DNA from: Gammaproteobacteria bacterium
Lineage (GTDB): Bacteria > Pseudomonadota > Gammaproteobacteria > Ga0077536
Direction of reading: 5' to 3'
DNA length: 64,000 nucleotides
NCBI GenBank assembly: GCA_016191285.1
Contig: JACPPA010000022.1
Location: 62,001-126,000, forward strand
A program made the position numbers and the translations under genes. Under the pieces are notes generated by a model. The model was not told the origin of the DNA. It saw nothing but the letters and a program-made list of their open reading frames with translations, and made no database searches. Positions 5,741 through 45,333 of this stretch are shown in pieces. Position 1 is the first letter of the stretch, and each line of letters starts with the position of its first letter.

Positions 5741-5913
5741 TTAAGGAAGCTCTGCAAAAGGCAGAGCTTCCCGCGGCACAGGGAGGTGCCGCCATTTTCG
5801 ATGGTTGCAAACCATTGAAAATGAAGGGAAGCAAAAATCATACTTTTTGCTTCCCGTACTCTGAATAAGTCCAGGATGGAAGTCCAGGATGGACTTATTC
5901 AGAGGTTCCTTAA
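5741..5913. mobile_element. IS5-type MITE, complete copy A
   Basis: A 165-base element (5745-5909) between direct repeats TTAA (5741-5744 and 5910-5913). Ends are inverted: GGAAGCTCTG on the left and CAGAGGTTCC on the right. TTAA fits the YTAR target duplication of IS5-family elements, and the right end read inward (GGAACCTCTGAATAAG) resembles the IS5 end GGAAGGTGCGAATAAG. There is no coding capacity. The interior is almost all hairpin: 5745-5771, 5773-5792, 5793-5823, 5826-5855 and 5859-5904. It lies 32 bases before the start of the next gene, so it probably forms part of that gene's leader. Confidence 0.8.
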
Positions 5914-7756: not shown

Positions 7757-7812
7757 CAGCAGCTCCGAGCCAGCCAGGGATGGCTGGCGAGGTTGAAGCG
7801 CAGCACGCACCT
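7757..7812 (+). repeat. AGGGA-loop hairpin repeat, partial copy R3
   Basis: Right half of the repeat seen at 36171-36296 and 45072-45187. It keeps the hairpin GCCAGCCA-GGGA-TGGCTGGC (7769-7788). Against the other copies (GCCGGCCA/TGGCCGGC) one base pair has changed on both sides (G-C to A-T), so pairing is conserved. It lies just after the PilZ stop codon, with the AGGGA strand in sense. Confidence 0.6.
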
Positions 7813-7869
7813 GATAATCGCCGCCGCCGGTCGATAGGAACCCACTGCGCCAATTTCGGATTAACTTCC

Positions 7870-35290: not shown

Positions 35291-36141
35291 TGAATAAGTC
35301 GTTGCAGACCTTGGTGACCGGGCTTGCGCTCGAGCGCTTGGAAGAGAATCTATTTCGTGGCGCGGTTAGCGACACGTTGGTCAAACGGGTCTACGGCGGC
35401 AAGGTATTAGGCGAGGCGATGAACGCGGCCCAGCAAACCGTCGCCGACCGTCCGATCCATTCGCTCCATGCCTATTTTTTGCGCGAAGCCGATTCCTATT
35501 CGCCGGTGGTTTACTCGGTGGACCGCAGTCGCGACGGCAAAAGTTTTTCCGCGCGGCGAGTCACCGCGATTCAGCACGGTCAGCCGATCTTCACGCTTGA
35601 AGCTTCGTTTCAGAAAGTCGAGAGCGGGATTGAATTTCAACGCTCGATGCCCGAAGTCCCGGCCATCGAGAGCCTCCAGCCGGTGCAGTGGAACTGGGAT
35701 AAATTTGATTCGATGACGGCGCGTTATCAACGCATGATGACGATCGTGGCACCGTTTGAGATCCGCGCGATCGATGGGCCGAATGGCTCGCATGATGCCG
35801 CCGGTAACCCCATTCGGCGGGCGTGGGTGAAGACCACCGAACAATTGCCTGATGATCCCGATATTCATCGCGCGATTCTGGCCTATCTGTCGGACTATGG
35901 CCTCATCTGGACCTTGCTCGCGCATCATGGGTTTCAACTCGGCGCTGACAATTTAGTCGTCGCGAGCCTCGACCATGCCATGTGGTTTCATCGCCCCTTT
36001 CGGATGGACGAATATCTCTTGTACCACTGCGAGGGGGTGTCGTCCGCCGCCGCGCGCGGCTTGGCCCGCGGTAGTTTCTATTCGCGCAGCGGGGAATTAG
36101 TCGCGTCTGTCACCCAAGAGGGCTTGATGCGGGTGGTCTAG
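35290..36141 (+). CDS. tesB: Acyl-CoA thioesterase II
   Basis: 283 residues, a double hot-dog thioesterase of TesB type. N-terminal RLEENLFRGAVSDTLVKRVYGG, split for length, the FxG...RVYGG pattern of the family; SLHAYFLREADSYSPVVYSV, KSFSARRVTAIQHG; and the C-terminal hot dog with SLDHAMWFHRPFRMDEYLLY containing the catalytic Asp. Releases free CoA from acyl-CoA in the cytoplasm. The start codon overlaps the panB stop by one base, so translation is coupled. After the stop is a weak hairpin CGTCTG/CAGACG and TTTGTT (36142-36166), a poor terminator. Confidence 0.92.
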   Translation: MNKSLQTLVTGLALERLEENLFRGAVSDTLVKRVYGGKVLGEAMNAAQQTVADRPIHSLHAYFLREADSYSPVVYSVDRSRDGKSFSARRVTAIQHGQPIFTLEASFQKVESGIEFQRSMPEVPAIESLQPVQWNWDKFDSMTARYQRMMTIVAPFEIRAIDGPNGSHDAAGNPIRRAWVKTTEQLPDDPDIHRAILAYLSDYGLIWTLLAHHGFQLGADNLVVASLDHAMWFHRPFRMDEYLLYHCEGVSSAAARGLARGSFYSRSGELVASVTQEGLMRVV

Positions 36142-36170: not shown

Positions 36171-36296
36171 CGGTTGTCGGGTGTGCGCGTAGCGACTTGT
36201 GGAGCCTGCGGCGCAGGGACAGCGCCGCAGGCGGAACAGCGACGAGCCGGCCAGGGATGGCCGGCGAGGAAGAGCGGAGCGCGCACCCGACGACCG
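36171..36296 (+). repeat. AGGGA-loop hairpin repeat, full copy R1
   Basis: An outer stem (CGGTTGTCGGGTG at 36171, matched by CACCCGACGACCG to 36296) encloses two perfect hairpins: GCCTGCGGCGC-AGGGACA-GCGCCGCAGGC (36204-36232) and GCCGGCCA-GGGA-TGGCCGGC (36246-36265). Both show AGGGA in or beside the loop. Related copies are at 45072-45187 and, partly, 7757-7812. Fills most of the gap between tesB and the kinase gene. Confidence 0.7.
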
Positions 36297-36394
36297 TCGC
36301 TCACGACAGGAGTCTTTACGGAGCGCACAGGCCTTGGCCAAATCATTAAAGATCTGCCGAAATTCTCCGCTATGCGGGATATGAGTTAACCCGC

Positions 36395-38197
36395 ATGACC
36401 AGTACTACCACTAGACCTAAGTTTACTCGCTTTGAACTCCTGTCGCGGCTCGGCAGCGGCATGCATGGCCGTGTCTATCTGGCGTGGGACCCGCAACTCG
36501 AACGCAAGGTCGCATTGAAGGTGTTGACGGTCGACCGCGACTCCAGCGCGTCACTCGATCAATTCATGAGCGAGGCGCGCGCGGTGGCCAAAGTGGCGCA
36601 TCCCCACGTGATTCCGTTATTTGAAGCCGGCACCGAGCGCGGTGTGCCGTATCTGGTCTTTGAATATGTGCCCGGCCAGGTGCTGAAGGAACAAATCCGC
36701 GGCAAGGCGTTCGACGTGCCGGCCGCGCTTGGCATGATGACGCAAATTCTGGACGGAGTCGGGGCCGCGCACGCTCTGCAAATCGCGCATCTCGATCTCT
36801 CGCCGAACAATATTCTGGCTGACCGGCAGGGTCGCCTACGGGTGATGGATTTTGGTCTGGCGCGGTGGGTGCGCCGCGAGCGCGCCGAGAATGTCGACGA
36901 CATCCAGGGCACGCCGCGTTATATGAGTCCTGAACATTTCTTGGGCGGACGTTTGAGTCTACGTACCGATGTGTTCGCGCTAGGCCTCATCTTCTACGAA
37001 TTGCTGACGGGTAGTCCTGCGTTTGAAGCGCAAAAGTTCTCGCTCCTGCGCCAGTACATCGAAGACGCGCAATTAGACTGGAGCAAATTGCACGATCGAA
37101 AAGTGCCGCCGGAAATTATTGCCGTGATTCGTGACGCCGTGGCGCGCGATCCCAAAACACGCTTTAGCAACGCTTGTGAAATGCTCGCCATGTTGCGCGA
37201 AGCCCAACTTGCACAGAGCGCGCGTGAAAATCAGGACGTGGCGGTGCAGTTTTTATTGCGGCGATTGCACCGCCGACCGGAATTTCCCGCGTTCTCGAAC
37301 AGCATCGCCGAAATCAATCGTCTGACCAGTGACGACAGCACCGCCGGGTTGCAGCAACTGAGTGTGGTGGTGATGCGTGATTTCAGTCTGGCGAATCGCT
37401 TGATGAAGGTCGCAAATTCGGCGTTTTTCGATCGCGGAGCCGGCGGCGCGACCACGGTGATGCAAGCAATTCAGCGCGTGGGGACCAAAACGCTGCGTAT
37501 GCTCTGCAATGGTCTGTTGATGTTCGAGCATTTGAAATCGGACAACCCCGCACTGCAAGACGCCTTGGTCAGCTCCTTTATTGCCGGATTGTTGGGGCGC
37601 GGTCTCGCCGCCAAATTGCGCAAGGAACTCACCGACGAGGTATTCGTCTCGGCCATGTTCAATCGGCTCGGGCGCAATCTCGTCATTTACTATCTACGCG
37701 AAGAGCACGAGGAAATCGCACGATTGGTGGCCGCTGGCACGCCGGAGAACGAAGCCGAACGTCGCGTGCTAGCCACCACTAGCGCGGCCGTCGGCGCGGC
37801 CATCGCCGCAGCCTGGAAGTTTCCTCCGGAACTGATCGCGACGATACAACCGCTACCCAACGGCGAACTCCCGCTCGCCCATCACGCGCAAGAGTTTCAC
37901 CGATATTTCGCGCATTTCCCGAATGAATTATGCGCGCTAGCGGCGGCGCCAGTGGGGGGCGATCCCACGCTCGCCTTGAGCGCCATCAGCCAGCGCTATC
38001 AAAATGTATTGCAGGCGCCACCGGCGGTACTCGCCGGGCTGCTGCAACAGGCACTGGATAAATTCTCGGAACTCGCACCGACGCTGGGTATTGCGCGCGC
38101 GACCAGCGGATTCTGTCAACGCCTGGAACACTTCCTTGCGACAGTCGCCGAATCCATCTTGGAGTCGACGACCGAAGCGGTGCTAACGCCTGCGTAG
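36395..38197 (+). CDS. Serine/threonine kinase-HDOD fusion
   Basis: 600 residues. Residues about 10-275 are a Hanks-type protein kinase: glycine loop LLSRLGSGMHGRVYLAW, ATP lysine in KVALKVLTV, the catalytic loop HLDLSPNNIL (132-141; HRDLKPEN is usual) and DFGLARWVRR, then GTPRYMSPEHFL. Asp of HxD and DFG is kept, but the loop Arg is Leu and the Lys is Ser, so activity may be low. From about 285 an HDOD domain (RRLHRRPEFPAFSNSIAEIN; VVMRDFSLANRLMKVANSAF), a metal-free HD-like signalling fold often tied to chemotaxis, cyclic-di-GMP or DNA-damage responses. No membrane segment, unlike many bacterial kinases. It stands alone. Confidence 0.87.
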   Translation: MTSTTTRPKFTRFELLSRLGSGMHGRVYLAWDPQLERKVALKVLTVDRDSSASLDQFMSEARAVAKVAHPHVIPLFEAGTERGVPYLVFEYVPGQVLKEQIRGKAFDVPAALGMMTQILDGVGAAHALQIAHLDLSPNNILADRQGRLRVMDFGLARWVRRERAENVDDIQGTPRYMSPEHFLGGRLSLRTDVFALGLIFYELLTGSPAFEAQKFSLLRQYIEDAQLDWSKLHDRKVPPEIIAVIRDAVARDPKTRFSNACEMLAMLREAQLAQSARENQDVAVQFLLRRLHRRPEFPAFSNSIAEINRLTSDDSTAGLQQLSVVVMRDFSLANRLMKVANSAFFDRGAGGATTVMQAIQRVGTKTLRMLCNGLLMFEHLKSDNPALQDALVSSFIAGLLGRGLAAKLRKELTDEVFVSAMFNRLGRNLVIYYLREEHEEIARLVAAGTPENEAERRVLATTSAAVGAAIAAAWKFPPELIATIQPLPNGELPLAHHAQEFHRYFAHFPNELCALAAAPVGGDPTLALSAISQRYQNVLQAPPAVLAGLLQQALDKFSELAPTLGIARATSGFCQRLEHFLATVAESILESTTEAVLTPA

Positions 38198-38200
38198 TCC

Positions 38201-38728
38201 TTATTTTTTCTTTTTAACCATGTTCGTTCCCGACGATTTTGTCAGCGCGGCCTTCTTTTTCGATTTGGCCGGCGCCGCGCCAGCGATCTGAGTCTCCCAT
38301 AACCCTTGCGCTTGCTCCCAGCCCACCACCGCGACCGTCGCGCCACCTTCCGTGATGAATTCAAGCGGACCTAGGAAGGTCATATAGAACTCACTTGCCT
38401 GCGGAAAGTAGGTTCGATCGTGCCGGGCGTTGCAGGATTCGTAGCCGTAGCCGGGTGCGGTCGCGGTCGCACCCCCTTCGCCTGCGCCGCCACGAACTTC
38501 CATCTTGCCCTTGGTTAGCAAATATTCGCCGGGGCCGATGTGGCGATGACGGGCGAAGGAAGAGCCCTTGGGGCAATCAAAGATTGCGGTCCAGGCGCCC
38601 ATTTCGGGCGACACATGCAGAAGTTTCCAGCGGATCCCGCCCTCCGATAAATTTACCGGGAACGGCATCCACGGTTGGCTATCGATATGAACGTATTCCT
38701 GGGCAATTTTCGGCTTGAGCATACTCAT
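38201..38728 (-). CDS. Cupin-domain protein, lysine-rich tail
   Basis: 175 residues. A cupin fold with the metal ligands of motif 1 in FARHRHIGPGEYLLTKGKM (HxHx4E) and a second strand set in FYMTFLGPLEFITEGG. This arrangement is like acetylacetone-cleaving and related dioxygenases and anti-sigma ChrR cupins; the product cannot be named. Lysine-rich tail (AKSKKKAALTKSSGTNMVKKKK, over 20 residues so only described: about 20 residues with 9 lysines) is unusual for an enzyme and may bind nucleic acid or be a loose extension. Convergent with the kinase gene, ending 4 bases from it. Confidence 0.72.
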   Translation of the reverse strand: MSMLKPKIAQEYVHIDSQPWMPFPVNLSEGGIRWKLLHVSPEMGAWTAIFDCPKGSSFARHRHIGPGEYLLTKGKMEVRGGAGEGGATATAPGYGYESCNARHDRTYFPQASEFYMTFLGPLEFITEGGATVAVVGWEQAQGLWETQIAGAAPAKSKKKAALTKSSGTNMVKKKK

Positions 38729-38764
38729 TCCTCTCGCTTGGTTGGTCGATGATACACAGCTTTT

Positions 38765-39880
38765 TTAGACGGCGGCACGCGTTCGGTCGCGCAATTTCCG
38801 CCGCTCCAGCCGCGGCAGAATTTCCGCCTCCAACGTCGTCAGCCCCTCGCCATAATCGGGCCAGGATAGCGTGGCGCCCGCGAGCCCGCAGGCCGCCATG
38901 TCGGCGAGGAAAGTCGTCACTTCATCCGGCGTTCCGATCACGGGGAAACCAGAATAGCCCGCCATCATATTGCGCAGATATTGTGCGCGTAGTTCAGGGT
39001 CGGGCGATTGGCTGCCGGATTCTCGCGTAAAGGTATCGAGCAGGTTTCCCGCGGCGACCAAATCACCGTGGACTTCGATGACATGATGATAATAGTCAAT
39101 GGCCTCCGCGTGGCTTGGTCGACAGAAAATCGCGGCATTTCCCCACACCTCGACTTCACGCGCGAATTCCTCGCGCGCAATGCGCTTCACGTCCGACACA
39201 GTCTCACGCGCGGCATCCAGATTGGGGGCGAGGATGAAATTCATATCGGCGTGCTTGGCGGCAAAGCGGCGGCCGGCGAGACTCACGCCAGCACTCATGA
39301 TCGGCGGGCGCGGGCGTTGTCGCGGTTTCGGTTCGGCATAGCAGCGTGGCGCTTGAAAATACTTGCCATTAAAATCGAACTCGCCCGGCGTGGTCCACAA
39401 TTGTTCGATTAGTTTCATCCACTCGTCGGCGAGCGCATAACGTTCGGCATGCGGCAGCTGGGTTTTGCCAAACATCTCGACCTCGTGGCTGTTCCAGCCA
39501 GCGACCACGTTCAGACCGAACCGTCCGTGCGAAATATGATCGATCGTGACGCCTTGCTTGGCGGCTAAGACCGGGTGAATGGACGGCACTGCGCTGGTAG
39601 CGAAGAGGTGAATCCGTTCCGTCGCCTGCGCGAGTCCAGCGGCCCAGGTGTAGGTTTCGAACGTGCGGTGATTGAATTCGCTCGCGCCTCCAAATCCTTT
39701 CCAACGGCACACCGGAATAAGCGCTTCGAGCCCCATGCGATCGGCGGTTTGCGCTAGACGCACCGATTCAGCCCAATTCACTTCAAGGCCGTGCTCGGCG
39801 GTCGAGATCGTGCAGCCATGGCTCACATTCAGGCCAAAGACGGCGAGTTGAAAGGCGTTGTGGCTGAGCGGCATCGTCAA
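38765..39880 (-). CDS. LLM flavin monooxygenase (RutA/SsuD-like)
   Basis: 371 residues. FNVSHG-type N-terminus (VFGLNVSHGCTISTAEHG), then GLEALIPVCRWKGFGGASEF and GRFGLNVVAGWNSHEVEMFG, the flavin and substrate loop of the FMNH2-dependent group that includes pyrimidine monooxygenase RutA and alkanesulfonate monooxygenase SsuD. Needs a separate flavin reductase, not seen nearby. A rut operon is not present, so substrate may differ. ATG at 39880. Divergent from a second LLM gene at 40186. Confidence 0.82.
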   Translation of the reverse strand: MTMPLSHNAFQLAVFGLNVSHGCTISTAEHGLEVNWAESVRLAQTADRMGLEALIPVCRWKGFGGASEFNHRTFETYTWAAGLAQATERIHLFATSAVPSIHPVLAAKQGVTIDHISHGRFGLNVVAGWNSHEVEMFGKTQLPHAERYALADEWMKLIEQLWTTPGEFDFNGKYFQAPRCYAEPKPRQRPRPPIMSAGVSLAGRRFAAKHADMNFILAPNLDAARETVSDVKRIAREEFAREVEVWGNAAIFCRPSHAEAIDYYHHVIEVHGDLVAAGNLLDTFTRESGSQSPDPELRAQYLRNMMAGYSGFPVIGTPDEVTTFLADMAACGLAGATLSWPDYGEGLTTLEAEILPRLERRKLRDRTRAAV

Positions 39881-40185
39881 TGGCTACCCGGGTTCTGTTC
39901 GAGCGCGCAGCGATGTTCCGTCATCACCGCCACAACGGCGAGGGTGGTCGCTAGATCGAGCCAATTCCACCGCAAATCGGCGATCGTTGTCCGGTCGATG
40001 AACAGGCGAGTATGCGTGCATGGCGCTAGGGAGCGTAGCGCACCCCAGCGGAACTGGATAGCCAGGTCTCGAGGTCTTGTAGGCGCATCACCCACCGCGC
40101 CACGTCACGTCCGATTCCGCTTGCGCGATGGGCCAGGTGTCCGGGCATAATCAAGACCATCCACGGCAACCCAGTGAGGATGGGA
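39881..40185. other. Intergenic gap between divergent LLM genes
   Basis: 305 bases without a convincing gene. Short minus-strand frames (40026-40208 and 39877-40095) could together be a broken reading frame, with a hydrophobic end (LATTLAVVAVM), but no family is recognised. It must hold the two outward promoters; no clear -10 or operator was seen. Confidence 0.5.
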
Positions 40186-41211
40186 ATGGCGAAGATTAAG
40201 TTCGGCATGTTCGATTGGATCGATCAGGCCACGACCTCGATTCAAACCCTTTACGCGAACCGGCTCGCACTCGCAGAAGTCGCGGACAAGGCCGGCTTCT
40301 TTGCCTACCATTTGGCCGAGCATCACGGCACTCCCTTGGGGATGGCGCCTTCGCCGGCGTTGTTTCTGACCGCCGTGGCGCAGGGGACGCAGCGGATCCG
40401 TCTCGGCCCGTTGGCGTATTTATTACCCCTGTATAACCCCCTGCGCCTAATCGAAGAAGTCTGCATGCTCGATCAGTTATCAGGCGGACGCCTGGAGCTC
40501 GGGATCAGCCGGGGCGTGTCTCCGTACGAAATCGGTTGTTTCGATATCGATGCCAATGACACGCGCGAAATTTTCACCGAGACAGTCGAGATTTTTCGCG
40601 CCGGGATGCTGAATGACAGTTTGAATCACGCTGGCAAGCACTACCGTTATCGTGATGTGCCGATGGCGATCAAACCGCTACAGCGACCGTATCCGCCGTT
40701 GTGGTATCCCACGCATAACCCGGCCAGCGTCGAATACGCGGCACGCCATGGCTATCATTTCGTGAGTCTTGGGCCCATCAGCCTGCTCCGTGAACTAACC
40801 GATCACTATCGCGCGGTGTGGAACACCCATCGCCACGATCCGGATCGCATCAACGGTCATGTGACCGAGCCGATGCTAGGGACCATGCGCCAGGTCTTTA
40901 TCGCCGACACCGATGACGAAGCGATGACGACGGCCCGCGCCGCGTACCGCGACTGGAATCGCTCAATTACCTGGCTCTGGCATCGCCACCAGGACCACGC
41001 CGTCGATGCATTGTTTGATTGGGACACCGGTATTCTTGGCGAGACGATCCTCATTGGTTCGCCGCGCACAGTGCGCGAGAAAATTGAACGCCTGGTTGCC
41101 GAGAGCGGTTGCAACTATGTGATCGGCGCGTTTGCGTGGGGTACGCTGACGCAGGCGCAGAGTCTGCGTTCGTTGGAATTGTTCGCGACTCAAGTGATGC
41201 CCGGTTTTTGA
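40186..41211 (+). CDS. LLM class flavin-dependent oxidoreductase
   Basis: 341 residues, luciferase-like. MAKIKFGMFDWIDQATTSIQ, GFFAYHLAEHHGTPLGMAPS, IRLGPLAYLLPLYNPLRLIE and GRLELGISRGVSPYEIGCF are the characteristic barrel elements of bacterial luciferase alpha/beta-like monooxygenases. ATG at 40186 is chosen over 40174 because GAGGATGGGA lies just before it and the conserved sequence starts there. It is followed after 29 bases by pcaH on the same strand, so it may belong to the aromatic operon; a decarboxylating or ring-activating step is possible but not shown. Confidence 0.85.
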   Translation: MAKIKFGMFDWIDQATTSIQTLYANRLALAEVADKAGFFAYHLAEHHGTPLGMAPSPALFLTAVAQGTQRIRLGPLAYLLPLYNPLRLIEEVCMLDQLSGGRLELGISRGVSPYEIGCFDIDANDTREIFTETVEIFRAGMLNDSLNHAGKHYRYRDVPMAIKPLQRPYPPLWYPTHNPASVEYAARHGYHFVSLGPISLLRELTDHYRAVWNTHRHDPDRINGHVTEPMLGTMRQVFIADTDDEAMTTARAAYRDWNRSITWLWHRHQDHAVDALFDWDTGILGETILIGSPRTVREKIERLVAESGCNYVIGAFAWGTLTQAQSLRSLELFATQVMPGF

Positions 41212-41240
41212 CCTTGCACACGCTATCGTAGAGTGCGGCA

Positions 41241-41948
41241 TTGTTAACTCGCGAGCGCTATCGCAAGGCCACCCCGGACACGCAGCCGGCTTATAACTAC
41301 CCGCCGTACACGTCAACCCGCGCCCGCGCGCCGCGCGAAAGGTTGATTGAGATCCCGCAAGGGATCACGGAGACCACCGGCCCGCAGTTTCGCCAGGTGC
41401 AATTAGGTCCGAACGACAGCGATCTCACGACGCAGGCGGGCGGCGCGGCGCACGGTGAGCGGATCATCGTGACCGGACGGGTGCTCGATGAAACGGGGCG
41501 CCCGATTCCGCACACGCTGATTGAATTGTGGCAGGCCAATGCGGCGGGCCGCTACCGACATCCCGCTGATCAACATGCGGCGCCGCTCGATCCTAATTTT
41601 ACTGGCGCCGGACGCGTACGGACGGATGCTGCGGGTTACTATCGATTCCTGACGATTAGACCCGGGGCCTATCCGTGGCGGAATCATCCCAATGCCTGGC
41701 GTCCCGCGCATCTGCATTTTTCGATCTTTGGGCCCTGCTGCCTAACGCGTCTGGTAACCCAGATGTATTTCCCGGGCGATCCGCTGCTGCCCTTTGACCC
41801 CATCTTCAACAGCACGGCGGACGCCAACGCGCGGCAGCGCCTGGTGGCTGAGTTGGCGTGGGAGGTCACGCAACCGGAGTTTGCGCTTGGGTTTCGCTTC
41901 GATCTCGTGTTGCGCGGGCCGCACGAAACGCCGTCTACGCCAGGCTGA
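41241..41948 (+). CDS. pcaH: Protocatechuate 3,4-dioxygenase beta subunit
   Basis: 235 residues. The iron site is complete: Tyr105 in GRYRHPAD, Tyr144 in PGAYPWRN, His157 and His159 in PAHLHFSIFG, with the same spacing (39, 13 and 2) as in known PcaH; also LVTQMYFPGDPL. Cleaves protocatechuate between its hydroxyls to 3-carboxy-cis,cis-muconate. Start is a TTG at 41241; no ATG is suitable. Stop overlaps the pcaG start (TGATG). The N-terminus (YNYPPYTSTRARAPRERLI) is as in family members. Confidence 0.94.
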   Translation: MLTRERYRKATPDTQPAYNYPPYTSTRARAPRERLIEIPQGITETTGPQFRQVQLGPNDSDLTTQAGGAAHGERIIVTGRVLDETGRPIPHTLIELWQANAAGRYRHPADQHAAPLDPNFTGAGRVRTDAAGYYRFLTIRPGAYPWRNHPNAWRPAHLHFSIFGPCCLTRLVTQMYFPGDPLLPFDPIFNSTADANARQRLVAELAWEVTQPEFALGFRFDLVLRGPHETPSTPG

Positions 41949-42475
41949 TGACCCTGCTGCGCACCCCGTCGCAAACTATTGGCCCGTTTTCATCCATCGG
42001 ATTTGATTGGTTGAATGGGTCAGCGACCGTTGTCGCGGACGGTTCCATGGAATTCCTTACCATTGAGGGACGCATCCATGACGGTGACAGCCGGCCCGTC
42101 ACCGACGCGGTGCTCGAATTTTGGCAGGCCGATTCCGACGGCCAGTATCGCGAAGGCTTTACGCGAATCGTCGCCAATGCCGAGGGCCGCTTTCAGTTTC
42201 TGACGCCGAAACCGGGCTCAATCGTTGCGGTCGACGGCACTCATCACGCGCCACATTTGCTGGCGATGATCTTCATGCGCGGCTTACTCAAGCAGCTGTA
42301 TACGCGGCTGTACTTCAGCGATGAAGCGCTGAACGCGCGCGATCCCATTCTTAACTTAGTACCCTCCGCGCGACGTGCAACGCTCATCGCACGCCGCTCG
42401 ACATCGGAGCCGCCGACCTATGGCTGGGATCTGGTGTTGCAGGGCGCGCACGAGACGGTTTTTTTTGACTGTTAG
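41948..42475 (+). CDS. pcaG: Protocatechuate 3,4-dioxygenase alpha subunit
   Basis: 175 residues, slightly shorter than typical (about 190-200). Same fold as PcaH but without iron ligands: LLRTPSQTIGPFSSIGFDWL, DAVLEFWQADSDGQYREGF and HLLAMIFMRGLLKQLYTRLYF. It forms the heteromer with PcaH and shapes the substrate pocket. ATG at 41948 overlaps the pcaH stop by one base, so coupled translation. The C-terminal GWDLVLQGAHETVFFD is the usual end. Confidence 0.93.
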   Translation: MTLLRTPSQTIGPFSSIGFDWLNGSATVVADGSMEFLTIEGRIHDGDSRPVTDAVLEFWQADSDGQYREGFTRIVANAEGRFQFLTPKPGSIVAVDGTHHAPHLLAMIFMRGLLKQLYTRLYFSDEALNARDPILNLVPSARRATLIARRSTSEPPTYGWDLVLQGAHETVFFDC

Positions 42476-42494
42476 CAGCGCGGCGATCTGAGCC

Positions 42495-43820
42495 ATGGAA
42501 TTATTCGAGCCATTATTTGGATCCCCTGCCCTCAACGAACTCTTTGCGCCCCGCACGCAGGTGCAATTTCTGCTCAATTACGAAGCGGCACTCGCGAGCG
42601 CCGAAGCAGCGGCAGGCTTGATCCCAATCGCCGCCGCGCAGTCGATCGCGGCACATTGCCGCGTCGAACTTTTCGATCTCGAGGCGCTCGCGAAGGCGAC
42701 TCGCCTGGCGGGTAATCCGGTCATTCCGCTCGTCAAAGCGCTGGCCTTGCTGGTCAGCGCCGACGACACCAGCGCTGCACGCCATGTTCATTGGGGGGCG
42801 ACGAGCCAGGACGTGCTCGACACGGCGCTCGTGTTACAGCTCCGCCAGGTCCTCGATCTCGCGACTGATGGGCTAGGGCGTCTCGCACAGTCGCTGACCG
42901 CGCTGGTCGAGCAGCATCGCGGCACCGTGATGATCGCGCGGACCTTGTTGCAACATGCCCAGCCCACCAGCTTCGGTTTGAAAGCTGCCGGTTGGCTCAC
43001 TGCCGTACGGCGCGCCGCGGCCCGGATCGCGGCGGTGAGGCAGCGCGCGCTGGTACTGCAATTCGGCGGGGCGAGCGGCACCTTGAGCGGCTTGGGTGAC
43101 GCCGGCCTTCGCGTTAGTGAATATCTCGCTTCCCGTCTTGGCCTTTTGCTTCCCGATCTACCGTGGCATACCGAGCGCGATCAGCTTGTGGAAATCGGCA
43201 CGACCCTCGGAATGCTCGCCGGTACCCTCGGCAAAATCGCCAAAGATTTATCACTCCTGATGCAAACCGAAGTAGCGGAAGCCGTCGAATCTAGGCGGCC
43301 CGGGCAGGGTGGCTCGTCGGCCATGCCGCACAAACAGAATTCCGTGGGTTGCGCGGTCGTCATCGCCGCTTCGCTGCGCGCGCCAGGGCTGGTGGCAACC
43401 CTGTTGAGTGCCATGGGGCACGAGCACGAACGGGCCCTGGGCGCCTGGCATGTCGAATGGGAAACCCTGCCCGAACTCTGTCGTCTCGTCGTGGGTGCGC
43501 TGGGTCATTTAAATGAAATCTGCGCCAGCTTGAGCATTAACACCGCGCGCATGGCGGCGAATCTGGAACTAACGTCGGGCCTCGTGTACGCCGCTGATCT
43601 TGCCGGCGCCTTGGCACCAACCTTGGGTGCCGGTTCGCATGCGGTGGTCGAGGAACTGTGCCACAAGGCACGCGTGCGTGGCGAATCTCTACAGAACATG
43701 GCAGCACAGGATCCGCGCATCGTGGCGGCGCTAACGCGCGAACAACTACGCGAGGTGTTTACCACCGCGCATCATCTCGCCGCTGCCAATCGGTTAATCG
43801 ACCGCGCACTACAGAAGTAA
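42495..43820 (+). CDS. pcaB: 3-carboxy-cis,cis-muconate cycloisomerase
   Basis: 441 residues, fumarase/aspartase superfamily. Signature GGSSAMPHKQNSVGCAVVIA (SSxMPxKxNxxxxE-like loop) plus HWGATSQDVLDTALVLQL and HAQPTSFGLKAAGW. Converts carboxymuconate to 4-carboxymuconolactone, after PcaHG. The remaining beta-ketoadipate genes (pcaC, D, IJ, F) are not in the window. 19 bases after pcaG; GCGGCGATCTGAGCC before the start is a weak ribosome site. Confidence 0.93.
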   Translation: MELFEPLFGSPALNELFAPRTQVQFLLNYEAALASAEAAAGLIPIAAAQSIAAHCRVELFDLEALAKATRLAGNPVIPLVKALALLVSADDTSAARHVHWGATSQDVLDTALVLQLRQVLDLATDGLGRLAQSLTALVEQHRGTVMIARTLLQHAQPTSFGLKAAGWLTAVRRAAARIAAVRQRALVLQFGGASGTLSGLGDAGLRVSEYLASRLGLLLPDLPWHTERDQLVEIGTTLGMLAGTLGKIAKDLSLLMQTEVAEAVESRRPGQGGSSAMPHKQNSVGCAVVIAASLRAPGLVATLLSAMGHEHERALGAWHVEWETLPELCRLVVGALGHLNEICASLSINTARMAANLELTSGLVYAADLAGALAPTLGAGSHAVVEELCHKARVRGESLQNMAAQDPRIVAALTREQLREVFTTAHHLAAANRLIDRALQK

Positions 43821-43829
43821 ACGCCCGCA

Positions 43830-45011
43830 ATGCGCACCCAGGTCGGGATCATTGGCGCGGGCCCGGCCGGCTTACTGCTCTCGCATTTACTGCATTTGGA
43901 AGGCATCGAGTCCGTGGTGATCGAGCAACGTTCCCGCGCGACCGTCGAATCGACTATCCGCGCCGGCGTCCTAGAGCAAGGCACGGTCGACATCTTGTGC
44001 GAAGCCGGTGTCGGAGAGCGTCTGCGCCGCGAAGGGGTTGTGCATCATGGCTTCGAAATACGCTTTAACGGCGAGCGCCATCGCGTGCCGCTTAGCGAAC
44101 TCACGGGCGGTCCCGCCATCACCCTCTATGCGCAACACGAAGTGCTAAAGGATTTAATTGCCGCGCGCACCGCAGCCGCCAACGGCCAAATCTGCTTCGA
44201 GGCCAAAGGCAGTCGGGTGTTCGCGCCGGAGACCGCGCGACCGGGTATCGAGTTTCAAACGACGGCCGGTTCGCAACGTCTGGAGTGCGACTTTATCGCC
44301 GGCTGTGACGGCTATCATGGCGTGTCGCGGGCAGCGATTCCGGCTACGTCATGCCGCGAGTTCCATCGTGATTACCCCTACGCATGGTTTGGCCTATTGA
44401 CTGCCACGCCACGGGTTGCCGAAGAACTGATTTATTGCCACCACGAACACGGCTTTGCGCTCGTGAGTACGCGATCGCCCGGCATCCAACGGCTGTATTT
44501 TCAATGCAGCCCCAACACCCGCATCGAGGATTGGTCGGATGACCGAGTGTGGGACGAACTGCATTCGCGCCTGGCGATCGACGGCGGCGCCGCGCCGGCG
44601 ATCGGACCCATTTTGCAGCGCGACGTGGTGGGACTACGAAGTTTTGTCTGTGAACCGATGCAGTATGGACGGCTTTACTTAGCCGGCGATGCGGCGCACA
44701 TCGTACCGCCCACGGGCGCCAAGGGGATGAACCTCGCCATCGCGGATGTGCGAATCCTAGCGCGGGCGCTGACTGAATTCTATCGGAGCGGCGATCAGCG
44801 CTGGCTCGACGCGTATTCCAGCGATTGTCTGCGCCGGGTCTGGCGCGCGCAGCGCTTCTCGGCGTGGATGACCGCGCTGCTACACCGCCCTGATCCCTTC
44901 GATGCCTTTCAAGCGCGGCTTCAACACGCGGAATTCAACGCACTGAAGGCATCGGTCGAGGCCGCAAGGGTATTAGCGCAAAACTATGTCGGATGGTCGT
45001 GGGAGCAATGA
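43830..45011 (+). CDS. pobA: 4-hydroxybenzoate 3-monooxygenase
   Basis: 393 residues, as in Pseudomonas PobA. FAD motif GIIGAGPAGLLLSHLLHLEG, RAGVLEQGTVDILCEAGVG, the DG motif FIAGCDGYHGVSRAAIP and GD motif LYLAGDAAHIVPPTGAKGMN. Hydroxylates 4-hydroxybenzoate to protocatechuate with NADPH and O2, feeding PcaHG. 9 bases after pcaB, so one operon in the order pcaH, pcaG, pcaB, pobA. No pobR or pcaQ-type activator is next to it; the regulator is elsewhere or the downstream TetR. Confidence 0.95.
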   Translation: MRTQVGIIGAGPAGLLLSHLLHLEGIESVVIEQRSRATVESTIRAGVLEQGTVDILCEAGVGERLRREGVVHHGFEIRFNGERHRVPLSELTGGPAITLYAQHEVLKDLIAARTAAANGQICFEAKGSRVFAPETARPGIEFQTTAGSQRLECDFIAGCDGYHGVSRAAIPATSCREFHRDYPYAWFGLLTATPRVAEELIYCHHEHGFALVSTRSPGIQRLYFQCSPNTRIEDWSDDRVWDELHSRLAIDGGAAPAIGPILQRDVVGLRSFVCEPMQYGRLYLAGDAAHIVPPTGAKGMNLAIADVRILARALTEFYRSGDQRWLDAYSSDCLRRVWRAQRFSAWMTALLHRPDPFDAFQARLQHAEFNALKASVEAARVLAQNYVGWSWEQ

Positions 45012-45071
45012 CGAGCAGTCAATCGACGGACAAGAAAGACTCCTCGGAAGTATCGATTACGGTGGGCGGCC

Positions 45072-45187
45072 GCCAGGTGTGCGCGCAGCGGCTTGTGGAG
45101 CGTGCGGCGCAGGGACAGCGCCACACGCGGAGCAGCTCTGAGCCGGCCAGGGATGGCCGGCGAAGAAAAGCTGCGCGCACACTTGGC
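45072..45187 (+). repeat. AGGGA-loop hairpin repeat, full copy R2
   Basis: Outer stem GCCAGGTGTGCGCGCAGC (45072-45089) with GCTGCGCGCACACTTGGC (45170-45187), one mismatch. Inside: GCGTGCGGCGC-AGGGACA-GCGCCACACGC (45100-45128, one mismatch) and GCCGGCCA-GGGA-TGGCCGGC (45142-45161). Relative to copy R1 the first hairpin has a C-G to G-C swap on both arms. It lies between pobA and the TetR gene, in sense with both. Confidence 0.7.
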
Positions 45188-45293
45188 GAGACTGCCCGGG
45201 GCGTTAATAAGGCCCGCCTTGTTCTGCCTCTGGTGTCTCGCCATGCAGCAGATAGGCGTCGGGCAATAAAAATTCCGGCCGATTTCGAATTTT

Positions 45294-45308
45294 CTTGTTG
45301 CGAACAAG
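45294..45308. promoter_or_regulatory. Palindrome, probable TetR operator
   Basis: CTTGTTGCGAACAAG is a perfect 6-base inverted repeat with a 3-base centre, in AT-rich flanks, 25 bases before the TetR-family start codon. Its position and size suit autoregulation by the regulator it precedes, which would also control icmF downstream. Not confirmed. Confidence 0.55.
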
Positions 45309-45333
45309 TAAATTTTACGCCAATAATGCGGGC

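Follow-up and report, generated by a model that had tools for sequence, protein, structure and literature searches.

A dispersed palindromic repeat family with paired GGA-loop hairpins in a gammaproteobacterial genome and its possible role as a CsrA docking module

CsrA/RsmA is a global regulator, and its activity depends on the number of competing sites made by the cell. In our study, we examined a stretch of 64,000 nucleotides (nt) of a Gammaproteobacteria bacterium (assembly GCA_016191285.1, contig JACPPA010000022.1, positions 62,001 to 126,000), called the window, which contains copies of a dispersed repeat, F1, with a predicted RNA fold in which an outer stem encloses two GGA-loop hairpins. 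The RNAs CsrB/CsrC and RsmX/Y/Z contain, like F1, repeated hairpins with loop GGA, whereas F1 has two sites only, is multi-copy, lies after genes, falls below the Rfam threshold for CsrB and showed no promoter-like or terminator-like site of its own when two loci were scanned. TwoAYGGAY RNA, an Rfam family, consists of two hairpins with a GGA-containing loop, as in F1. At the gathering score, no Rfam family was matched by the elements in the window or in 18 related sources (17 loci of the wider set described below included), and this holds for TwoAYGGAY on the assumption that the library includes it; the scan of the related loci found two tRNAs. Miniature inverted-repeat transposable elements (MITEs) and the repetitive extragenic palindromic (REP) and bacterial interspersed mosaic element (BIME) palindromes are short, dispersed, palindromic and intergenic, and they often lie between convergent genes. 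F1 is multi-copy, non-coding and bounded by terminal inverted repeats, as expected of a MITE, but unlike these elements it keeps its GGA tips on changing stems, and neither a REP-type signature nor a target duplication was established for it.

RsmU of Xanthomonas campestris is an RNA processed from a 3' untranslated region (UTR) that binds RsmA and has several GGA motifs (PMC7694677). Unlike F1, RsmU is a single locus, described as restricted to Xanthomonas, and not a dispersed repeat, and changing all four of its GGA motifs abolished neither binding nor function. The TAACTGA repeats of Beggiatoaceae are, like F1, dispersed and intergenic, and a Csr-type regulator was considered for them (PMC4679880). 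Unlike F1, they are presented in the relevant passages of that paper as unstructured direct repeats, devoid of GGA and mostly present before start codons, and its authors deem canonical CsrA unlikely. Among the top-ranked results of searches in the open-licence literature of PMC, no paper was found that ties CsrA/RsmA sites to dispersed hairpin repeats, and the TAACTGA repeats were the nearest case among them.

Copies, fold and loops of F1

Copy A served as the first query against the window genome (5.1 Mb, 60 contigs), followed by a covariance model of 13 copies. The F1 family, about 126 nt long, was found to comprise 13 full copies, a diverged copy that is also of full length (L040), four mini copies and partial copies, where matches of the palindrome on the second strand and matches shorter than 23 nt were excluded from the BLAST count. 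The partial copies are L013, which is the same place as L041, copy C of the window and a decayed match of 24 nt, L019 (E 5.9e-4). The initial annotation had reported two full copies and a partial one in the window, and all three were recovered as related sequences (Table 1). Copy B was 87% identical to copy A over 107 nt (E 2.5e-31) and copy C 82% over 55 nt (E 1.8e-7), and the covariance model gave copy C 21 bits (E 0.59). At E 0.01 and with stricter filters, the model matched neither the 5 congeners nor 30 other genomes of the host's family. One marginal match outside the host's family, L048 in genome G044 (30.5 bits, E 0.0029 per genome, 58 genomes searched), again contained two GGA loops within an outer stem. 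Visual inspection of the F1 flanks showed no target site duplication; the flanks carry degenerate outer inverted repeats instead. In the flanks of L014, L040 and L044, for example, a second degenerate inverted repeat, TAAATnAAGCGCTCG / CGAGCGCTTnATTTA, was present about 10-30 nt beyond the arms, and the full element may therefore exceed 126 nt.

Table 1. Positions of the F1 copies, their hairpins and the F2 copy in the window
Feature	Position	Strand	Remarks
F1 copy A, full	36171-36296	+	outer stem 36171-36188 pairs 36279-36296; two inner hairpins
Copy A, first hairpin	36204-36232	+	11-bp stem, loop AGGGACA
Copy A, second hairpin	36246-36265	+	tip C-AGGGAT-G, the CsrA SELEX core
F1 copy B, full	45071-45188	+	
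Copy B, first hairpin	45100-45128	+	loop AGGGACA; stem with one C-A mismatch
Copy B, second hairpin	45142-45161	+	tip C-AGGGAT-G
F1 copy C, partial	7757-7814	+	consists of the right part with the second hairpin; BLAST match 7760-7814
Copy C, second hairpin	7769-7788	+	compensated G-C to A-T change; tip C-AGGGAT-G
F2 copy, MITE-like	5741-5913	+	ends TTAAGGAAGCTCTG / CAGAGGTTCCTTAA; AGGGAG hairpin 5773-5792; CCAGGATGG twice near right end

The fold contained an 18-bp outer stem around two hairpins. In the alignment of 13 copies, made without the partial copies L013 and L015 and without L040, 97.6% of 581 cells were paired and 16 of the 45 pairs were changed on both sides, against a mean of 5.5 in shuffled alignments, none of 500 shuffles being as good; when the partners were slid by 1-3 columns, at most 4 pairs were changed on both sides. 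The copies are mutually related, and these figures count sequences, not events. The full copies A and B folded with z of -9.0 and -8.0, respectively (none of 200 shuffles as good), and the fold energies of F1 copies were near -88 kcal/mol. The whole of copy C showed no fold excess over its shuffles (z 0.30), and only its second hairpin forms. Both paired changes proposed earlier were real: in the first hairpin, the column pair 40/64 was GC in 12 copies and CG in one, and in the second hairpin, whose pairs show no two-sided change in the 13-copy alignment, the compensated change sits in copy C.

The claim that AGGGA is conserved held for its core only. GGA was found in the first loop of all 15 copies compared and in the second loop of 14 of 17, whereas exact AGGGA was present in 7 of 15 and 10 of 17, respectively. 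These counts include L020, a member of another family; when it was set aside, GGA was present in 14 of 14 first loops and 13 of 16 second loops. Ten variants of the first loop, 6 to 8 nt long, were found, namely AGGGACA, AGGGATA, AGGGAC, AGGGAT, AGGACA, AGGATA, ACGGACA, TTAGGAC, TTAGGAT and TTAGGATA. A CsrA/RsmA site has GGA in a hairpin loop, at best within ACARGGAUGU in a loop of six nucleotides; F1 has such loops, and its second tips in the window read C-AGGGAU-G.

A single substitution in a stem appears as G.U on one strand but as A.C on its complement. Read on the AGGGA strand, the stems of F1 contained 23 G.U cells and 6 A.C cells (15 and 5 column types, respectively). In the unpaired columns, few of which are C, no excess of C-to-T changes that would mimic wobble was found (10 G>A types, no C>T). 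The asymmetry was also seen near the GCGGCACAGGGATGTGCCGC hairpins of other genomes, described below, with 33 G.U against 8 A.C in the 80 loci analysed first (far flanks 86 against 104), 15 against 7 in the remaining 32 loci (p 0.13) and 45 against 15 in all 112 loci (far flanks 114 against 140). This pattern favours folding of the AGGGA strand as RNA, though a single-stranded DNA intermediate of this strand would look alike. That selection acts on the RNA folded from the AGGGA strand is supported but not proven.

Gene context and csrA

The genes around F1 were called with a simple coding-model gene finder. In 18 of 19 copies, mini copies included, the gene upstream is encoded on the AGGGA strand, and 13 of 19 copies start no more than 64 nt from the upstream stop codon. 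Twelve copies were found between convergent genes, five between co-directional genes in sense orientation, none in antisense orientation and one between divergent genes; in two copies, one side was unresolved. The convergent share, 12 of the 18 fully resolved copies, compares with 109 of 531 gaps of at least 100 nt in the sampled genome. Since convergent placement alone makes the upstream gene sense, only the five against none informs on orientation, and one or two of these five copies are mini copies or the already known copies of the window. All three window copies follow a gene of the same strand, as the initial annotation had noted, and these genes encode a thioesterase (PF02551), an FAD-binding protein (PF01494) and a PilZ protein (PF07238).

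A link to CsrA presupposes the gene, and a canonical csrA was found once in the window genome (92.7 bits). Its protein was almost identical to solved CsrA/RsmA proteins (E 7e-28). In the leader of this csrA (L031, contig C14), GGCGCAGGGACAGCGC lies 66 nt before the start codon; it shares 16 identical nt with the first F1 hairpin and is possibly an autoregulatory site of the lineage. The leader hairpin was rejected as proof of a CsrA link, because in the best fold of the leader piece the shared hairpin was not formed and its 11-mer was found on the csrA contig of none of the five congeners.

We compared csrA with matches to the pattern SMCAGGGATGKS in 397 genomes of the phylum, 199 of which have csrA; the families are not independent. 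Among the genomes with at least 30 matches, 14 of 15 have csrA, and G048 is the one that does not. The reversed-pattern control of this search is a poor baseline because the reversed pattern contains TAG. Palindromic matches made up 60 of 76 in the csrA-bearing genomes G187 and G406 against 74 of 221 in 29 csrA-less genomes, counted as 12-mers among the matches listed for 26 genomes and five of 15 more, minus three rows of G252 and without G048. The expectation from arm composition was 30.6 for the 30 observed in G406, 14.7 for the 30 observed in G187 and 42.4 for the 48 observed in the csrA-less genomes (150 of the 221 matches). The palindromic share carries little weight, because the share in G406 equals this expectation.

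The same tip on other stems and in other genomes

Hairpin octamers were ranked in 80 stretches of 20 kb (1.6 Mb) of the window genome, where an octamer has two closing outer pairs and was scored as a hairpin if at least 4 further base pairs followed. The top-enriched stem-closed octamer was CAGGGATG, with 12 of 33 occurrences in hairpins against a baseline of 0.78%; two other octamers were commoner in hairpins by count (16 and 17), from far more occurrences. The twelve hairpins are not independent, as five belong to F1, five to F2 and two to others, and they stand on several stems. The initial annotation held that the second-hairpin tip fits the CsrA consensus, and this tip, C-AGGGAU-G, is both the top-enriched octamer and the core of RUACARGGAUGU, the consensus from systematic evolution of ligands by exponential enrichment (SELEX) as quoted in PMC7652899, where the loop of most ligands was six nucleotides long and closed by AC/GU. 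In a search for neighbouring hairpins with a common loop motif, only two ANGGA pairs were found, both of them F1 copies, and other motifs gave more.

The AGGGAG-loop hairpin reported earlier from the window is present, in a different repeat family, F2, which is related to F1 but lies outside it. Other F2 copies contain GCGGCACAGGGATGTGCCGC, and the window copy has AGGGAG at that place. The element L020 (C40:322772-322913) has the same plan as F1, but the stems that carry its two AGGGA loops are entirely different, as is its outer stem of 26 bp, and a fourth element with the loops ATGGA and AGGGA adjoins it on the opposite strand. A third family has two copies (C11:53010 and C51:61035), which contain a GC-AGGGAC-GC hairpin followed by a CC-AGGGAT-GG hairpin in the same order; an enclosing stem was predicted in the second copy only. 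As side observations, two distinct double-hairpin elements adjoin on opposite strands at L106:2590-2913 (C40), and the F2 copy of the window contains several hairpins with two kinds of GGA tip and has look-alikes in many Gammaproteobacteria.

GCGGCACAGGGATGTGCCGC was scanned in one genome per species of 84,980 species. At least 112 stretches were found, compared with about 0.5 expected by chance, and none in the viral contigs scanned. Gammaproteobacterial names were carried by 98 of the 112 records, including Xanthomonas, Luteimonas, Pseudoxanthomonas, Sedimenticola, Microbulbifer, Halomonas and many metagenome-assembled genomes (MAGs), and many records share one MAG. The others were ten from one MAG labelled Deltaproteobacteria, two from one Proteobacteria MAG, one Bacterium and one Clostridia.

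Of these loci, 80 were analysed first, the remaining 32 served as replication, and all 112 were then taken together. Besides the query itself, the top octamers in the 80 loci were CAGGGATG (13 of 27 in hairpins, of which two stand on a shortened form of the query stem) and CATGGATG (10 of 24). The remaining 32 loci were again led by CAGGGATG (5 of 17), with CATGGATG (4 of 18) and CAAGGATG (3 of 8) among the top four and GTCCGGAC (4 of 10) ranked between these two. Within 300 nt of the GCGGCACAGGGATGTGCCGC hairpin, the 80 loci contained 20 sense and 9 antisense ANGGA loops among 127 distinct hairpins, compared with 3 sense and 8 antisense among 494 hairpins beyond 600 nt; identical hairpins were removed among the near ones only, and their removal from the far ones left 3 sense loops among 477. 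With identical hairpins removed on both sides, as in the rerun of all 112, the 32 loci had 8 sense and no antisense loops among 55 near hairpins and 2 sense and 6 antisense among 195 far ones. The replication points the same way with less force. Twelve of the near ANGGA hairpins lie 54-72 nt downstream of the GCGGCACAGGGATGTGCCGC hairpin on nine different stems, with the loops AAGGAC, AGGGAC, ATGGAC, ATGGAG, AAGGAG, AGGGAG, AGGGAT, ATGGAT and AGGGAA. In addition, CANGGATG hairpins were seen to form outward-facing pairs with a spacing of about 130-640 nt; the pairs in L182, L168, L175 and L166 lie between convergent genes and that in L232 between divergent ones, and by coordinates, G406 and G187 have such pairs too.

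Explanations and significance

Starting from what is established, that is the repeat family, its fold, its GGA tips and placement, the presence of csrA and the same tip on the stems of other families, we infer that F1 is transcribed, bound by CsrA and of effect on its host gene. F1 would then be a MITE-like element serving as a CsrA docking module in 3' UTRs, which we consider plausible, though unproven. This is the best single explanation because it accounts for a tip that survives changes of the stem. A dispersed palindromic element of about 126 nt, sitting after stop codons, would be transcribed within the 3' UTR, and the RNA of the AGGGA strand would form a long outer stem around two hairpins, both with a loop GGA. 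CsrA dimers are able to bind two sites on one RNA, according to the account in PMC7652899. Two close GGA loops would be bound at once by such a dimer, making each copy most likely a local docking site. A copy could tether CsrA to its mRNA and shield or mark the 3' end, and many copies together could absorb part of the CsrA pool.

Several observations weigh against CsrA docking. According to PMC7652899, most SELEX hairpins had no more than four contiguous pairs, and very stable structure might be disadvantageous; the stems of F1 type are long, unlike these. GGA was lost from the second loop in L010, L011 and L041, and the mini copies L042, L043, L044 and L045 (50-52 nt) retain both outer arms but lack the two hairpins, so that the hairpins are dispensable for the persistence of the repeat. 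ANGGA with any closing pair was not enriched over all hairpin loops of the window genome (rank 139 of 256), and the signal therefore lies in the specific tip. The leader tip shared with F1 is missing, as said, from the csrA contigs of the five congeners. In the wider set, when the first 80 loci were clustered, only 7 of 26 clusters had another ANGGA hairpin in sense orientation no more than 110 nt downstream, the 48 resolved intergenic matches showed no preferred orientation (18 sense, 13 antisense, 10 convergent, 7 divergent), and the wobble asymmetry was weak with one element per cluster (10 G.U against 3 A.C, p 0.09). Genome G048 has no csrA match and 30 matches to the SMCAGGGATGKS pattern in 2.1 Mb. 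In ten csrA-bearing genomes, each of a different family and sampled over 80 kb, CANGGATG hairpins were not enriched (1 of 116 octamers in a hairpin), where the density of the window genome would give about six CAGGGATG hairpins in 800 kb. The idea that csrA-bearing genomes are generally rich in such hairpins was dropped on this count, and csrA alone does not bring the elements.

A close rival, itself quite possible, is that these are ordinary MITE/REP-like elements without CsrA, whose tips are kept by a transposase recognising the folded DNA strand or whose copies are young. The many copies, the long terminal inverted arms and the mini copies with arms but no hairpins are what it expects, as are the unbiased orientation in the wider set and the ten samples without enrichment, and the wobble asymmetry is also expected if only one DNA strand folds. 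The lack of F1 model matches in the 5 congeners and 30 family genomes suggests a fast turnover. The plain mobile element does not account for a loop GGA that survives a complete change of stem between families and genomes and a tip equal to the CsrA consensus; the csrA of 14 of the 15 genomes rich in pattern matches also speaks against it, and a target duplication was not visible by eye. REP sequences block exonucleases or help end transcription between convergent genes. F1 copies could be 3'-end structures of this kind with incidental GGA tips, and their convergent placement, their closeness to stop codons and their fold energies agree with it; we regard this as unlikely, as it leaves the retention of GGA in the loops unexplained and no terminator-like site was found after the stems at the two window loci.

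The initial annotation had also suggested a titration system, and the idea that the copies are stand-alone genes for CsrA-sequestering small RNAs like CsrB/RsmZ is the least probable of the explanations considered. Each copy contains two GGA hairpins, the copies are many, csrA is present, and RsmU is an RsmA-sequestering RNA derived from a 3' UTR in Xanthomonas, as reported in PMC7694677. A scan with a simple sigma-70 consensus at copies A and B found no promoter-like site directly before and no terminator-like site after them; a terminator-like site at 36055-36070 precedes copy A and a promoter-like site at 45298-45327 follows copy B, and neither bounds a copy. With only two sites per copy, an Rfam CsrB score of 7.6 bits against a cut-off of 71 and no match at the gathering score, stand-alone titration is so far unsupported.

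Beyond CsrA docking by F1 itself, several mobile palindromic families, mainly in Gammaproteobacteria, may independently have acquired or may keep paired CsrA/RsmA hairpins as a mobile-element arm of the Csr system; this is possible, though less likely than not. If it is true, each insertion would put the mRNA of a gene under the influence of CsrA, and the copies would jointly tune the pool of free CsrA. If dispersed repeats supply CsrA sites, post-transcriptional control could be rewired whenever a small element inserts, and CsrA titration could change between related strains.

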